From the NCBI RefSeq assembly GCF_947305105.1, contig NZ_CAMZCS010000028.1, forward strand, positions 1-42,468: a stretch of 42,468 nt of DNA. The letters are read 5' to 3'. Of this stretch, positions 2,640 to 39,748 are shown piece by piece; within the stretch, counting starts at the first letter, position 1; each line of letters starts with the position of its first letter. Source of the stretch: an uncultured Fibrobacter sp. (GTDB lineage Bacteria; Fibrobacterota; Fibrobacteria; Fibrobacterales; Fibrobacteraceae). The position numbers and the translations under genes were made by a program. The notes under the pieces were generated by a model. The model saw nothing but the letters and a program-made list of their open reading frames with translations. It did not search any database and had not been told where the DNA came from.

Positions 2640-2645
2640 AATATA
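2640..2645 (-). promoter_or_regulatory. Possible -10 box (TATATT) of the zinc-ribbon gene
   Basis: TATATT on the minus strand ends 7 bases before the ATG at 2632. At that distance, initiation would fall at or next to the start codon. No convincing -35 box is visible; the position where it would lie is inside heptamer repeat DNA. Confidence 0.4.
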
Positions 2646-2653
2646 GTAAATAG

Positions 2654-2890
2654 TGGTTACGGGGTGAGTAGGAAGTAGACAGTAGGAAGTGGTTAGGGAT
2701 TAGGATCTAGAATCTAGGGGCTAGGGAGAAATATCACGGCTTCGCCGTCTTATATTGACGCACGAAGTGCGTGATTCTTTTCACTAGCCTCTATTCTCTA
2801 GTCTCTCAAAGACTCACTGCTCACCGCTCACGGCTCATGGCTCATAGCTCATAGCTCATCGCTCGTGCCTCGAGCCTGGAGCCTCCCTAC
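2654..2890. repeat. Heptamer tandem array with two-hairpin core (locus A)
   Basis: Nearly the whole gap can be read in consecutive 7-bp units. From 2668 the units are GTAGGAA, GTAGACA, GTAGGAA, GTGGTTA, GGGATTA, GGATCTA, GAATCTA and GGGGCTA. From 2784 they are CTAGCCT, CTATTCT, CTAGTCT and so on, drifting to GCTCATA/GCTCATC types and then CCTCGAG and CCTGGAG up to the eamA stop codon. A 60-bp core (2724-2783) separates the two arrays. It holds the hairpins ACGGC-TTC-GCCGT and CGCAC-GAA-GTGCG. The same core recurs at 33214, 37021 and, shortened, 33867. Confidence 0.9.
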
Positions 2891-3754
2891 TCATTTCCTC
2901 TTGGCCGCGATGAGTACGACAGAGCCAAGAATCAGAATAATGCCCGCGACAAGCCTGCCTGTGAGGATTTCGCCAAAGACAAGCACTCCGATTGCCACGG
3001 CCGTCACGGGCTCGAGCGCACCGAGAATCGCCGTGGGCGTCGACCCGATAATCTTCACCGCCTTCACCATGAATATGAGCGAAAGCACCGTCGGCACAAG
3101 GCCCAGCATGAAGCCCCAACCCCAAGAACTCGCCTGCGTAAAGAGCGGAGGCAGCCCCGAGCCGAACGTCACGGAATAGAGCAACAAAAAGACCAAGCAA
3201 AAACAAATGGCGTAAAAAGTCATCTTCACGGAGCCCATCTGCAAGTTGATACGGTTCGCCATCACCATGTAAATCGCGTACGAAAGTGACGAGGCAAACA
3301 CGAGCACAAGGCCTGCGGTGCTCAGAGGCACTCCGTCATCGCCACGGTACAACAGAGCGACCCCCGACATCGAAACGGCAATGGAAACGACCATCCAGGC
3401 TTTAATCTTCTCCTTGAAGAATATCGCCATCAAAACCGAGACTTCGAGCGGATAGAGGAAGAGGAGCGTCGAGGCAAGCCCTGCATCCATGTACTTGAAC
3501 GAGGCATAATACGTGAGCGAACTGACCGCAAACAAAAAACCAAAGGCGACGAGCGCCCCAAATTCCTTGAGCGTAATCTTAAAATGCGAACCTTTCGCGA
3601 GAATCACCGCAAAAAGAAGTAGCGCCGCCGTGAAAAAACGGTAAAAAAGGACGTTTTCGGGAGAATAGCCCTGGGAATAGAGGTTCAGCGCCCCCAGAGG
3701 GTTCGTGCCATAACAGATGGCGGAAAGAGCAGCAAAAATAAAGCCTTTTATCAT
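2891..3754 (-). CDS. EamA/DMT-family transporter
   Basis: This 287-residue polytopic protein belongs to the drug/metabolite transporter superfamily. It has about ten hydrophobic helices in two EamA repeats (roughly residues 2-138 and 148-284). The first repeat begins with the typical A-I-C-Y-G-T-N-P stretch, and the second ends with the family-typical LEPVTAVAIGVLVFGE followed by a final helix and a K-R-K tail. The substrate cannot be told from sequence. The start codon is directly preceded by heptamer repeat DNA with no Shine-Dalgarno sequence. The gene lies 66 bases downstream of smc on the same strand, so the two could share a transcript. Confidence 0.88.
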   Translation of the reverse strand: MIKGFIFAALSAICYGTNPLGALNLYSQGYSPENVLFYRFFTAALLLFAVILAKGSHFKITLKEFGALVAFGFLFAVSSLTYYASFKYMDAGLASTLLFLYPLEVSVLMAIFFKEKIKAWMVVSIAVSMSGVALLYRGDDGVPLSTAGLVLVFASSLSYAIYMVMANRINLQMGSVKMTFYAICFCLVFLLLYSVTFGSGLPPLFTQASSWGWGFMLGLVPTVLSLIFMVKAVKIIGSTPTAILGALEPVTAVAIGVLVFGEILTGRLVAGIILILGSVVLIAAKRK

Positions 3755-3820
3755 AGTAGGAAGTCGGAAGTAGGAAGTAGGAAGTTACTGTCTACTGTCT
3801 ACTTCCTACTGTCTACTAAA
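3755..3820. repeat. Head-to-head heptamer array (locus B)
   Basis: The whole gap between the smc stop and the eamA start is heptamers. GTAGGAA, GTCGGAA, GTAGGAA, GTAGGAA run one way, then TACTGTC, TACTGTC, TACTTCC, TACTGTC, the reverse complements of GTAGACA/GTAGGAA types. The two halves form an inverted repeat. There is no hairpin core here. Confidence 0.88.
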
Positions 3821-23965: not shown

Positions 23966-25303
23966 ATGAAAAAAATCGCACTCTTGGCCGGGACCTGCGC
24001 TCTGTTCATTCTTGTCGCCTGCGGCGGCGATTCCTCCACAAGTGCGTCGAAAAACGACCTGTCCGACCCCGCCGAAGCAACCGCTCCAAAAGAAACGGAC
24101 CCAAAAGATTCCGGTAGCACCGTAAAAGAAGCGGCAGAAGACTCCGACATTATCAGCGACGGGGATTCCACAAATGTGTCCACAGGAAAAAGTTCTTCTT
24201 CCGTAAAAGCAGAAAACACATCTTCTGCTGAACAAACAAAGAGTTCTTCCTCCGTAAAAGCGAGAAGTTCCTCTTCTTCTGTAAAAGCAGCGAGTTCTTC
24301 GTCCGAAACGCCTGTTGGAACTTCTTCTTCCGCCAAGGAAGAGACTGTTGTTTCCTCCTCCGGCCCGTTCAATCCCTGCAGCGAGGCCCCAGCCCTTAAA
24401 GAAAACTGGAAATACTTGAACCCAGACGTTCAGTATGGCTGTTTCAAGGATTCCAGAGACAATCAATACTATGCGACCGTCAAAATCGGCAATTATACCT
24501 GGATGGCCGAAAACCTGGCATACGATTATATATATGCCCCCCGCACACAAGATTCATGGTACGGATACAGCAAAAAAGGAGCCGATGACCAGAATCACCG
24601 AGGATACCTGTATACCTGGGACCTCGCGATGGCCGATACAAACTGCCGCAGAGAAAACTTATGCAAACCACGAGGCCAAATGCGCGGCCTCTGCCCAGAA
24701 GGGTTCCACATTCCCTCTTACTGGGAATGGCAAGACCTTTTCAATGCCGTTGGCGGAGTAGACATAGCAGCCCGCGAACTCAAGTCTACAGAGGTTTGGG
24801 ACAACACGGCAAAAGGTACAAACAAGTACGGTTTTAGCGTGATTCCTAACGGGCCTCGATACGGAGCAGGGTATTCCAATCCTGTTGATTTCAATACAGA
24901 CTTTTGGACTTCCGAAGAAACCGGAAAGAATGTAACCATTTCCATAGTTTTTTTAAGCGACGACAAAGTCAATTCATTGGCATTTGAAAATAAGGAATAC
25001 GGCTTTTCCGTTCGCTGCCTCATGGATCATCCAGAACAAGAAACGCCCCATTCTGGCATACCCCATGATCCAGATAAATTATACCAGTGCGACGAAATGC
25101 TAATGGACGACATAAATACCTGGCATTTCAAAAACGAATCACAAACTGAATTCCAGTACTTTATTGACGACCGTGATTCAATATCTGTTCGTATAAAAGA
25201 CTCCTATTCAGATCACACATCTAAATCAGGCTACGCCAACAACGAGTACGATCTTTACATTATGTTCTGGGCAGCCTTGAACAGCTGTTTGCCACGCTAC
25301 TAA
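23966..25303 (+). CDS. FISUMP-domain lipoprotein with C-terminal extension
   Basis: This 445-residue lipoprotein has lipobox L-V-A-C (Cys at about 19), a linker of about 110 residues with Ser clusters alternating with V-K-A, and then a FISUMP domain. The landmarks are Y-A-T-V-K-I-G-N-Y-T-W-M-A-E-N-L, G-Y-L-Y-T-W, L-C-P-E-G-F-H-I-P-S, Y-G-F-S-V-I-P-N-G and the terminal Y-G-F-S-V-R-C-L. About 90 further residues follow with no recognised domain. An AGGATAG sits before the start. It is a paralogue of the gene at 18830 but with an extra C-terminal part. Confidence 0.88.
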   Translation: MKKIALLAGTCALFILVACGGDSSTSASKNDLSDPAEATAPKETDPKDSGSTVKEAAEDSDIISDGDSTNVSTGKSSSSVKAENTSSAEQTKSSSSVKARSSSSSVKAASSSSETPVGTSSSAKEETVVSSSGPFNPCSEAPALKENWKYLNPDVQYGCFKDSRDNQYYATVKIGNYTWMAENLAYDYIYAPRTQDSWYGYSKKGADDQNHRGYLYTWDLAMADTNCRRENLCKPRGQMRGLCPEGFHIPSYWEWQDLFNAVGGVDIAARELKSTEVWDNTAKGTNKYGFSVIPNGPRYGAGYSNPVDFNTDFWTSEETGKNVTISIVFLSDDKVNSLAFENKEYGFSVRCLMDHPEQETPHSGIPHDPDKLYQCDEMLMDDINTWHFKNESQTEFQYFIDDRDSISVRIKDSYSDHTSKSGYANNEYDLYIMFWAALNSCLPRY

Positions 25304-26211: not shown

Positions 26212-27375
26212 CTATTCGAAATCGGCGAACTCTTCTTCGGCGTCCTTGATGTCGGCGGCATCCGGTCCTTCGCCAAACTCGCTATCATCCTCAGCCTCGT
26301 CCAGGGAGTCACCCCCCATGGCGCCCAGCTGGTATTCGACCTTGCGGGCTTCCTTGGACTGGCCCAACTTGAGGATTGCGGCGCACTCTTCGCAGTAACC
26401 CAAGTGCTTGTCTACCCAGAATTCGGGAGAGACCAGATTCTTGTTGCAGCGGGTACAAATCTGGGTTGCCGCTTCGCGGGTAAACGCGAGATTCTGTTCT
26501 TCGAGTTCCTTGAGCAAGCGCTCGGTCAGTTCTTCCTGCGTTTCTTCGGCGAGGGAAATCTTGTGACGGATAGCCGAGGTCGGCTTCATGTCGAGGTTCT
26601 TCATTTCAGAAGAAACCTTCTTCTTGTTGGCGCGTTCCTCGTTCTCATCGATTTCGAAGAAGAAAATGGACTTGTTCAGTTTTTTCCCGCCTTCGAGGAG
26701 GACGGCGTAAGGGAGCTCGACCTTTTCCTTGCCCCCCTTCTTGGCCTTCACTTCTTCGGCGACTTTCGAAGTATCTTCGACAGGAGCCTCTATTTCAGGC
26801 ACATCTACTTGCGGTACTTCTTTCTTTACGACCTTGACTTCCGGCTCGGGTTTCGCGACCGGCTTGGCGGCAGGCTTTGCGACCGGCTTAGCAGCAGGCT
26901 TTGCGGCCGGCTTGGCAGCAGGCTTGACCGCCGGCTTAGCAGCGGGCTTTGCAGCAGACTTAGCAACAGGCTTTGCACTCGGCTTCGGGGCCGGTTTTGC
27001 AACCGGTTTCGCCTTCGCAGCCGGCTTGGCAACGGGCTTTGCAGCAGGCTTCTTTGCCGGAGCCTTCGGAGCGGGCTTCGAACTGGACTTTGCCACCGGC
27101 TTAGATGCAGGCTTTGCAGCCGGTTTGGCGGCAGGCTTCTTTGTTGCGGCCTTCGGTGCCGGTTTGGACGGTTTCGTCGGCTTGGCTGCGGGCTTAGCCG
27201 ACTTCGGAGCAGGCTTTGCAGCAGGCTTGGACGCAGACTTCGCGGCAGGTTTGGCAGCCGGCTTCTTTGCCGGAGCCTTTGGAGCGGGCTTAGGGGCAGC
27301 CTTCTTAGCGACAGGCTTCTTTGCCGGAGCACTCTTTGCAGCGGAGTTTTTCGAAGACACTTTCTTAGAGCTCAT
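26212..27375 (-). CDS. Histone H1-like Lys/Ala/Pro-rich protein with zinc ribbon
   Basis: This 387-residue protein has three parts. Residues 1 to about 190 are a near-continuous Lys-Pro-Ala-Ala repeat, like the C-terminal tail of histone H1 or bacterial AlgP/HctB-type DNA-compacting proteins. A middle part (Y-A-V-L-L-E-G-G-K-K-L-N-K) leads to a zinc-ribbon unit with C-T-R-C and C-E-E-C near residues 305-335, reminiscent of DksA/TraR fingers. The tail is very acidic (E-D-D-S-E-F-G-E-G-P). Nucleic-acid binding is likely; the exact role is unknown. It starts 2 bases after the cyclophilin gene, so the two form an operon. The repeats in the DNA are coding, not a CRISPR. Confidence 0.78.
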   Translation of the reverse strand: MSSKKVSSKNSAAKSAPAKKPVAKKAAPKPAPKAPAKKPAAKPAAKSASKPAAKPAPKSAKPAAKPTKPSKPAPKAATKKPAAKPAAKPASKPVAKSSSKPAPKAPAKKPAAKPVAKPAAKAKPVAKPAPKPSAKPVAKSAAKPAAKPAVKPAAKPAAKPAAKPVAKPAAKPVAKPEPEVKVVKKEVPQVDVPEIEAPVEDTSKVAEEVKAKKGGKEKVELPYAVLLEGGKKLNKSIFFFEIDENEERANKKKVSSEMKNLDMKPTSAIRHKISLAEETQEELTERLLKELEEQNLAFTREAATQICTRCNKNLVSPEFWVDKHLGYCEECAAILKLGQSKEARKVEYQLGAMGGDSLDEAEDDSEFGEGPDAADIKDAEEEFADFE

Positions 27376-32941: not shown

Positions 32942-33049
32942 GGGGCTAGAATCTAGGGGTTAGAGGCGATGAGGTCGGGGCTAAAGCCCCTTTGAGGTGT
33001 GAGGAAAGTAGGAAGTAGGAAGTAGACAGTAGACAGTAGGAAGTAGGAC
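32942..33049. repeat. Heptamer array (locus C, left part)
   Basis: Units of 7 bp run from GGGGCTA, GAATCTA, GGGGTTA (32942) through an irregular zone with the hairpin GGGGCT-AA-AGCCCC (32977-32990). From 33008 they continue as GTAGGAA, GTAGGAA, GTAGACA, GTAGACA, GTAGGAA and GTAGGAC. The array stops where the next palindrome begins. Confidence 0.85.
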
Positions 33050-33107
33050 AAATGCGTAAGGCGAGTGCCGCGGTCAAGCTTGCTTGAACATGGCCGAGCC
33101 GAGCATT
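33050..33107. repeat. 58-bp imperfect palindrome
   Basis: AAATGC (33050) and GCATTT (33102) form the ends, and GGTCAAGC with CTTGAACATGGCC forms the centre around TTG, with smaller matches between. It interrupts the heptamer array and looks like a small inverted-repeat insertion. Confidence 0.65.
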
Positions 33108-33109
33108 TG

Positions 33110-33183
33110 GTACTTGAGCTATACGAAACTTGGCAATTTATTGCCTTAGTTGAGTTATCCTCTATGAGGAGTAGCGAGAGTAC
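33110..33183. other. 74-nt three-way-junction fold
   Basis: The ends GTACTTGAGCTA and TAGCGAGAGTAC pair at 10 of 12 positions (one of them a G-U), the exceptions being a tandem G-A/A-G mismatch at 33116-33117. Two hairpins lie inside. The first is AACT-GGCAA-TTTA-TTGCC-AGTT (33127-33151, small internal loop). The second is TCCTC-TAT-GAGGA (33158-33170). This could be a small RNA, a structured insertion or a decayed RNA gene; no anticodon-like arm identifies it as a tRNA. Confidence 0.55.
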
Positions 33184-33185
33184 AA

Positions 33186-33351
33186 GTAGGAAGTGGTTAG
33201 GGGTTAGGATCTAGGGAGAAATATCACGGCTTCGCCGTCTGTTACTAACGCACGAAGTGCGTGATTCTCATTCACTAGCCTCGAGCCTGGAGGCTCGAGC
33301 CTCATACCTCATCGCTCATTGCTCACTGCTCGGGCCTCGAGCCCCGAGCCT
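33186..33351. repeat. Heptamer arrays flanking the two-hairpin core (locus C, right part)
   Basis: The left units are GTAGGAA, GTGGTTA, GGGGTTA and GGATCTA. The core is 33214-33274 (61 bp). The right units from 33275 are CTAGCCT, CGAGCCT, GGAGGCT, CGAGCCT, CATACCT, CATCGCT, CATTGCT, CACTGCT, CGGGCCT, CGAGCCC and CGAGCCT. The core is almost identical to the inverted one at 37021. The greA -10 box follows immediately. Confidence 0.92.
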
Positions 33352-33371: not shown

Positions 33372-33839
33372 ATGAAGCATTTGATTTCCAAAGAGGGTTT
33401 CGAAAAACTCAAGGCCGAATGGGAACACCTCAAGTACGAGGAACGCCCCGCCATGATCAACCAAGTGCAGGCCGCCGCCGCCGAAGGCGACCGCAGCGAA
33501 AACGCAGCCTACACCTACGGCCGCATGCGCGTCCGCGAGATTGACCGCCGCCTGCGCGAACTGGACCGCATCCTGGATGGCGCAAAGATTGTCGAAAACG
33601 TCGCTCCCGAAGACGGATCCATCAAGTTCGGTGCGACAATCAAGATGGTGGACATCAAGACCAAGCGCGAAAAGACTTACAGCATCGTCGGTGAAAAGGA
33701 AATTGACCCGCTCAAAGGCCGCATCAGCATGAAGTCGCCCATCGGCGAAGCGCTGCTCGGCAAAAAGAAGGGCGAAACCGTGCAAGTACAAGCCCCCCGC
33801 GGAACGATTACTTACGAAATCCTGGAAGTTACTTATTAG
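33372..33839 (+). CDS. greA: Transcription elongation factor GreA
   Basis: GreA enters the secondary channel of stalled RNA polymerase and stimulates cleavage of the backtracked transcript. The 155-residue protein has the N-terminal coiled coil (L-I-S-K-E-G-F-E-K-L-K-A-E-W) with the functional acidic tip in A-A-A-E-G-D-R-S-E-N-A-A-Y. The C-terminal FKBP-like domain has the S-I-V-G-E-K-E-I-D-P pattern, I-S-M-K-S-P-I-G-E-A-L-L-G-K-K and a final strand. Length is normal. There is no Shine-Dalgarno sequence, and a TATATT box lies 9 bases upstream, so the message may be nearly leaderless. Repeat DNA flanks the gene on both sides. Confidence 0.95.
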   Translation: MKHLISKEGFEKLKAEWEHLKYEERPAMINQVQAAAAEGDRSENAAYTYGRMRVREIDRRLRELDRILDGAKIVENVAPEDGSIKFGATIKMVDIKTKREKTYSIVGEKEIDPLKGRISMKSPIGEALLGKKKGETVQVQAPRGTITYEILEVTY

Positions 33840-33941
33840 AATCTAGAGAATAGGATCTAGGGGCTAGAGAAAATTTAGACGCACGAAGTGCGTGATTCTT
33901 ATTCACTAGATCCTAATCTCTAGCCTCTAACCACTAGCATC
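33840..33941. repeat. Heptamer array with shortened core (locus D)
   Basis: The whole gap between the greA stop and the tatD start is repeat. The units are GAATCTA (starting in the greA stop codon), GAGAATA, GGATCTA and GGGGCTA. A core keeps only the second hairpin (CGCAC-GAA-GTGCG), and CTAGATC, CTAATCT, CTAGCCT, CTAACCA and CTAGCAT run up to the ATG. The first hairpin of the core is deleted here. Confidence 0.9.
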
Positions 33942-36985: not shown

Positions 36986-37115
36986 TGGCTCCAGGCTCGG
37001 GGCACGAGGCTCGAGGCAAGTGAATGAGAATCACGCACTTCGTGCGTTAATAACAGACGGCGAAGCCGTGATATTTCTCCCTAGTCTCTATATCCTAGCC
37101 TCTAGATTCTCTAAT
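36986..37115. repeat. Heptamer arrays and core in inverted orientation (locus E)
   Basis: The units TGGCTCC, AGGCTCG, GGGCACG, AGGCTCG and AGGCAAG lead into a 61-bp core (37021-37081). This is the reverse complement of the core at 33214, with only one or two differences. TAGTCTC, TATATCC, TAGCCTC and TAGATTC follow. Confidence 0.9.
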
Positions 37116-37192: not shown

Positions 37193-37259
37193 ACTCAAAA
37201 CTGAGAACTGATAACTCAAAACTGAGAACTCAAAACTGAGAACTGATAACTCAGAACTA
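37193..37259. repeat. ACTSANA heptamer array (locus F)
   Basis: Ten perfect 7-bp steps: ACTCAAA, ACTGAGA, ACTGATA, ACTCAAA, ACTGAGA, ACTCAAA, ACTGAGA, ACTGATA, ACTCAGA, then ACTATTA, whose last three bases are the gdhA stop codon. The array lies between gdhA and its terminator, so it would be transcribed. Confidence 0.93.
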
Positions 37260-38639
<1,380 letters not shown>

Positions 38640-39706: not shown

Positions 39707-39748
39707 TGGGTTAGCGATGAGCTATGAGCGGCGAGCCATGAGGGACTA
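39707..39748. repeat. Heptamer array (locus G)
   Basis: Six steps, TGGGTTA, GCGATGA, GCTATGA, GCGGCGA, GCCATGA and GGGACTA, run from one base before the phosphatase start. GCTATGA and GCGATGA are related to the reverse complements of the GCTCATA/GCTCATC units in locus A. Confidence 0.8.

Follow-up and report, generated by a model that had tools for sequence, protein, structure and literature searches.

Intergenic DNA of an uncultured Fibrobacter sp. carries numerous arrays of 7-bp units that abut stop codons, run into gaps with a consistent polarity, share dispersed hairpin cores, are polymorphic in 7-bp steps and turn over among relatives. On balance, we favor viewing them as a Fibrobacter radiation of known prokaryotic heptamer repeats that spread by copying from one gene border to another and become longer or shorter by 7 bp at a time. 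We infer dispersal by copying from identical cores, from unit families that keep a constant order and from the replacement of arrays. The window analyzed here is a stretch of 42,468 nucleotides, in which the original prediction had read seven gaps as consecutive heptamers. All seven carry 7-bp periodic arrays (lag-7 identity 0.44-0.73), distributed over the following features.

2654-2890: two-armed heptamer element (AG-type arm on the left, CT-type on the right) in the gap between eamA and the following gene
2717-2793, + strand: conserved core of the dispersed element (fold z = -6.4)
2891-3754, - strand: eamA
3755-3820: AGTAGGA arm and its complement, occupying the entire gap from the smc-like stop codon to the eamA start codon
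32942-33049: AG-type arm (GGGGCTA, TGAGGTC hairpin, AGTAGGA units)
33050-33185: separate dispersed module between TAGG heptamers (GACAAATGCGTAAGG...GTACAAG)
33186-33351: two-armed element containing the core, upstream of greA
33840-33941: array from the greA stop codon to the start codon of a TatD-like gene (fold z = -5.1)
36986-37115, - strand: element with core (fold z only -0.36)
37193-37259: one-armed array of AACTGAG / AACTCAA / AACTGAT units, directly adjoining the stop codon of a - strand gene (37260-38609)
39707-39748: short AGCNATG array, a weak example

As predicted, the arrays are neither coding nor CRISPRs; identical 21-40 bp repeats with unique spacers are absent. The array at 39707-39748 is heptameric but short and weak, and its fold, tested against shuffles, is not significant. 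Positions 32942-33049 and 33186-33351, originally taken as one array locus, do consist of heptamers, but the interval at 33050-33185 is a different dispersed module of ~135 bp. Window positions 33038-33212 match other loci in three relatives at 88-97% (G013:C72, G043:C134 and G060:C60), and the orthologous site of the module is occupied in G043 and free of it in G008 and G013. Four blocks share the core (2654-2890, 33186-33351, 36986-37115 and, in part, 33840-33941). In the copy at 2717-2793, an ATCACG...CGTGAT inverted repeat encloses two GC hairpins, with borders CTAGGGGCTAG and CTAGCCTC.

Genome-wide counts covered 767 kb of the window's own genome (G000) and samples of relatives, with 99 kb of intergenic DNA; gene borders came from a simple home-made gene caller, and the relatives are draft assemblies. 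Intergenic DNA contained 98 lag-7 arrays versus 1.4 expected from dinucleotide shuffles, the excess over shuffled sequence that had been anticipated, and 81 lag-14 arrays. Every other lag between 4 and 16 gave 1-7 intergenic arrays, with a maximum of 7. A lag-7 array was present in 15.9% of gaps of at least 28 bp. Coding DNA showed lags 6, 9, 12 and 15, as expected, and few arrays at 7. Exact copies of AGTAGGAAGTAGGAAGT numbered 49 in the genome, with none of the reversed control. Arrays are patchy within the genus: some species have the commonest family in abundance, whereas others lack it and have different heptamer families instead. The reversed control pattern GGATGAAGGATGAAGGATGA was itself found 5 and 11 times in G009 and G011, respectively; a GGATGAA family of heptamers therefore exists in both species.

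The arrays are chiral, palindromic, composite and dispersed. Most consist of inverted arm pairs around a center rather than one-way drifts, with G-rich units anchored on AG and C-rich units, their reverse complement, forming the second arm. Neighboring arms run G-rich then C-rich in 43 pairs and the reverse in 2. Polarity by position in the gap agreed in 84 cases and disagreed in 15 in the own genome (p = 8e-13), whereas array-free gaps had no such bias (393:497). In 120 of 174 arms, counting ties, no dinucleotide was more phase-invariant than AG. Unit order along an arm is nearly constant (AGTAGGA, AGTGGTT, AGGGGTT, AGGATCT, AGGGGCT, then the core) and recurs at distant loci. The core, ~64-77 bp with two GC hairpins, reaches up to 100% identity at many loci and is present in ~50-70 copies per genome; one of its halves occurs 53 times and the other 66 times, most of them ~25 bp from each other and some unpaired. 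The gradual unit change along an array that was originally described is not one-way, and nearly the same order is found at many loci. For the most part, therefore, copies bring the apparent drift with them, and it does not arise afresh.

A purely local origin would have each array grow in place by 7-nt slippage and hairpin template switching, with no dispersal. Several observations are in keeping with this idea, including 7-bp indels, an empty site at C1:202745 that holds GATTA and so resembles the array unit GATTAGT, and the proposal, cited in PMC4692102, that 7 nt is the stretch of DNA held by polymerase. We nevertheless consider it unlikely, because near-identical cores number in the dozens and unit families follow one another in almost the same order at loci that are unrelated. 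A purely local origin is also at odds with arm pairing, as arms belonging to one Fibrobacter array are no more complementary than arms shuffled within the genome (duplex energies of -0.732 versus -0.737 kcal/mol per nt). Arm-family similarity was weakly above chance by permutation.

Under the favored reading of dispersal by copying, each array copy would be a short non-coding palindromic repeat element with two arms of heptamers. Either strand, read into the gap from the flanking gene, presents AG-anchored G-rich units, with a spacer or the GC hairpin core between the arms. Replication slippage or unequal exchange among units may make arms longer or shorter, and new arrays may be copied from others, either by transposition in trans or through homology-directed copying from arm to arm. 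Arrays would accumulate at gene borders, presumably harmless only there, and are probably mainly selfish or neutral.

Among close relatives, the same junction can contain a whole array, no array or one of another heptamer family. A loosely aligned indel tally (21/72) was too noisy, as unrelated arrays became aligned, and was repeated with strict alignments. In strictly aligned orthologous gaps, multiples of 7 made up 8 of the 10 clean indels in arrays and 2 of 25 indels elsewhere (Fisher p = 7.5e-5); the two exceptions among array indels represent the same difference, that of the whole 65-bp smc-eamA array. Comparison of array lengths between strains, as the original prediction had suggested, thereby bears out a 7-bp step. 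The copying it had put forward beside slippage agrees with near-identical dispersed cores and array replacement; a picture of simple slippage in which the unit gradually changes is not supported. An array was present in one or both genomes of 70 orthologous gap pairs; in 26 of these, only one genome carried it. Presence and absence were polarized by parsimony alone, and array deletion or whole-region recombination between strains could be the source of part of this pattern.

Individual junctions illustrate the turnover. The smc-eamA gap (3755-3820 in the window) holds the AGTAGGA hairpin in G000 and G043 and the same hairpin minus one heptamer in G018. The array is a 65-bp insertion relative to G013 and G060, where the gap reads TAATATG or TAGTATG (a TAA|TATG empty site), and G008 has a different element. 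Another empty site, ccatGATTA(c/t)gcc, is found in G008, G018, G060 and G064. Downstream of eamA (2654-2890), exactly one heptamer is missing in G013 and only a remnant is left in G060. At the site of 36986-37115, G013 is without the core, and the flanking heptamers there are still in phase. Array length at 37193-37259 differs strongly among G000, G013 and G043, while the array at 39707-39748 is shorter in G060 and of another family in G018. On the 3' side of greA, 30 species display heptamer families that are numerous and unrelated to one another, minimal gaps or repeats of other kinds, such that other heptamer families take the place of 33840-33941 in other species. The greA 3' array of G016 is 100% identical to that of G069, with flanks of 90% identity upstream and 81%, falling to 63%, downstream.

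Arrays lie close behind genes. In tandem gene pairs, the median distance was 1 bp from stop codon to array and 25 bp from array to next start. Predicted RNA folding was strong for several arrays (z of -4 to -6.4), including the - strand of 2654-2890 (z = -5.2) and 3755-3820 (z = -3.95), and not or hardly better than shuffles for 37193-37259. Stop-codon abutment, these folds and the terminator-like stems on both core strands would suit selected RNA or DNA elements, namely 3'-end hairpins that stabilize mRNA or terminate transcription bidirectionally and are REP/BIME-like in effect. Such selection accounts poorly for arrays that are absent or replaced at the same gene in close relatives, for the lack of locus-specific arm complementarity and for 36986-37115 and 39707-39748, whose folds are not significant. 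Furthermore, an Rfam search of the window returned two tRNAs only and no match to the arrays. A selected hairpin is possible for some copies; as the explanation of the arrays, we judge it quite improbable.

TAG stops are enriched beside arrays (27/50 versus 146/535, p = 1.6e-4), and the array at 33840-33941 shares its phase with the greA stop codon, the TAG at 33837-33839. This enrichment is what would be expected of stop-codon arrays, in which a TAG every 7 nt places stops in all three frames. However, periods of 4, 5 and 8 would serve equally and are not enriched, and viral contigs carry AGCAG, AGAAG and AGGAG arrays in similar numbers to AGTAG (93, 81 and 44 versus 88 contigs). One third to two thirds of the AGCAG, AGAAG and AGGAG arrays lie inside ORFs; those outside have a polarity like AGTAG, in smaller numbers. 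Since these heptamers share the polarity, TAG is not the cause. Stop-codon function as a general cause is largely refuted, and we rate it very unlikely. In viral AGTAGNN arrays, the C-rich arm was only downstream in 29 cases and only upstream in none, and 74 of the 99 with a nearby sense ORF start -20 to +15 bp from its stop codon. Across contigs, unit variants of the two arms agree (0.59 versus 0.15); because own arms in Fibrobacter pair no better than shuffled ones, this agreement indicates only a family shared genome-wide.

Heptamers are the commonest intergenic tandem repeats in the SPADE survey of 7006 prokaryotic genomes, with no clear functional clue (PMC6344855). Fibrobacter arrays display the excess over chance, the 7-bp unit variation and the convergent polarity with closeness to the upstream ORF that characterize prokaryotic intergenic heptamers. 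GGGAATC arrays of Xanthomonas occur as convergent pairs (70 and 75 cases) and lie nearer the 5' ORF (28 versus 160 nt), and the heptamers of Xanthomonas and Nostoc, GGGGA(T/C)T in the latter, lie preferentially on the coding strand where they follow an ORF and on the non-coding strand where they precede one (PMC4692102), again the polarity of Fibrobacter. Like those repeats, Fibrobacter arrays have a 7-bp unit, are intergenic and dispersed, contain degenerate positions and vary in length and sequence between relatives. The Xanthomonas polarity, with its convergent pairs and closeness to the upstream ORF, is that of Fibrobacter. Unlike the Xanthomonas, Nostoc and SPADE-survey heptamers, Fibrobacter has many families per genome, a nearly fixed family order, a hairpin core of ~50-70 copies and no G-quadruplex runs.

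TAACTGA repeats are known from Beggiatoaceae, Cyanobacteria and some Bacteroidetes, where in Beggiatoaceae they are forward and just upstream of start codons; MacGregor proposed a role in translational regulation, and array differences between related Cyanothece strains are mostly 7-nt steps (PMC4679880). By sequence, the array at 37193-37259 belongs to the same heptamer family, and a forward TAACTGA upstream of starts follows the CT-type rule of Fibrobacter arrays. The family is only one of many in Fibrobacter and, unlike in Beggiatoaceae, usually lies within two-armed arrays. The nearest parallel to array replacement is a hairpin stem, P6b, in the group I intron of Nostoc tRNA-Leu; it is built of complementary heptamers of Class I (TDNGATT) or Class II (NNTGAGT), changes length by 7-nt units and has repeatedly seen one heptamer class replaced wholesale by another at the same site (PMC4476775). 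P6b is a single site within an intron, whereas Fibrobacter arrays are genome-wide and at gene borders. The cyanobacterial comparison drawn in the original prediction is apt. Its statement of knowing no description of a comparable Fibrobacter family agrees with our search of the open-access literature, outside which most subscription journals lie and in which we found none, but such arrays are known from many prokaryotes (PMC6344855, PMC4692102, PMC4679880).

As short dispersed palindromes 3' of genes, Fibrobacter arrays also recall REP/BIME elements and MITEs. They differ in their tandem-heptamer arms and the lack of a RAYT gene; of MITE features, inverted arms are present, and inspection of empty sites by eye revealed no target-site duplication. 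REP-like elements mobilized by a RAYT/Y1 transposase, which involve a GTAG tetranucleotide and hairpins, might be suspected from the GTAG within the commonest unit, the palindromes and the 3' positions. Yet Y1_Tnp (PF01797) had 0 matches in the nearly complete G000, although arrays abound there, and was found in only 20 of 61 genus members, making this mode of movement highly improbable. Our searches detected no transposase or autonomous partner of the arrays, which, like the absence of a visible target-site duplication, weighs against the favored reading.

A scan of species genomes with GTAGGAAGTAGACAGTAG gave, among the matches listed, mostly Fibrobacter. The others listed were a deltaproteobacterium, a Vogelbacterium, a WOR-3 bacterium and a Selenomonadaceae genome, each with its own genomic setting; a Prevotella contig (L252) was left out as it looks like misbinned Fibrobacter (GC 0.52). 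Matches of the (GTAGNNA)4 type numbered 11, 7, 10 and 182, respectively, with none for the reversed control. For arrays detected regardless of sequence, polarity was significant in Selenomonadaceae (34:8, p = 7e-5) and not separately so in the small samples from WOR-3 (3:2), Vogelbacteria (13:6) and the deltaproteobacterium (11:5). Contamination of metagenome-assembled genomes may lie behind non-Fibrobacter matches; the own unit variants (TG, TA, TT) among the 182 Selenomonadaceae matches speak against it in that genome.

One and the same process of copying, moving in 7-nt steps and inherently polar in that purine-type units read into the gap from both genes, might make and replace arrays at gene borders of many bacterial phyla and of phages or prophages, a broader proposal that we regard as possible but doubtful. 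If it were true, the rapid replacement at single junctions would make Fibrobacter the place to catch the process acting. The polarity rule brings together separate observations made in Xanthomonas, Nostoc and Beggiatoa. Common bacterial 7-base repeats have no accepted explanation, and Fibrobacter arrays make one easier to test: their fast gain, loss and replacement at defined junctions offer a practical system for studying the 7-nt step and array movement.

Additional features were observed in and around the arrays. Heptamer arms downstream of eamA in G013 and upstream of greA in G043 contain a clean insertion of a 54-bp hairpin module, CCACCTAAAGGTGGCCATGCCCACATAAGTG(C/A)TAAAGCACTAAGTGGTCAAAGG. 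Elhai and colleagues reportedly described, in 2008, small dispersed repeats nested in cyanobacterial heptamers, an arrangement similar to this module within arrays but of different sequence and phylum. The intergenic repeat GTCATTGCGAGG...GAAGCAATCTCC adjoins heptamer arms at several loci (own C1:201060-201467 and G000:C5:20071-20330). Core copies often lie within ~250 bp of G000 contig ends (C7, C27, C32, C44, C53, C57 and C63); the elements therefore probably break short-read assemblies. On the - strand, window positions 2641-2653 read TTTACTATATT; similar motifs recur 10-20 bp before many start codons, frequently end CT-type arms and are possibly a Fibrobacter -10 element. The window also contains coding tandem repeats: a 51-bp repeat at 24187-24305 within the ORF at 23966-25303, and 12/24-bp repeats at 26855-27321 within the ORF at 26212-27375 (- strand), which therefore encodes a low-complexity protein.
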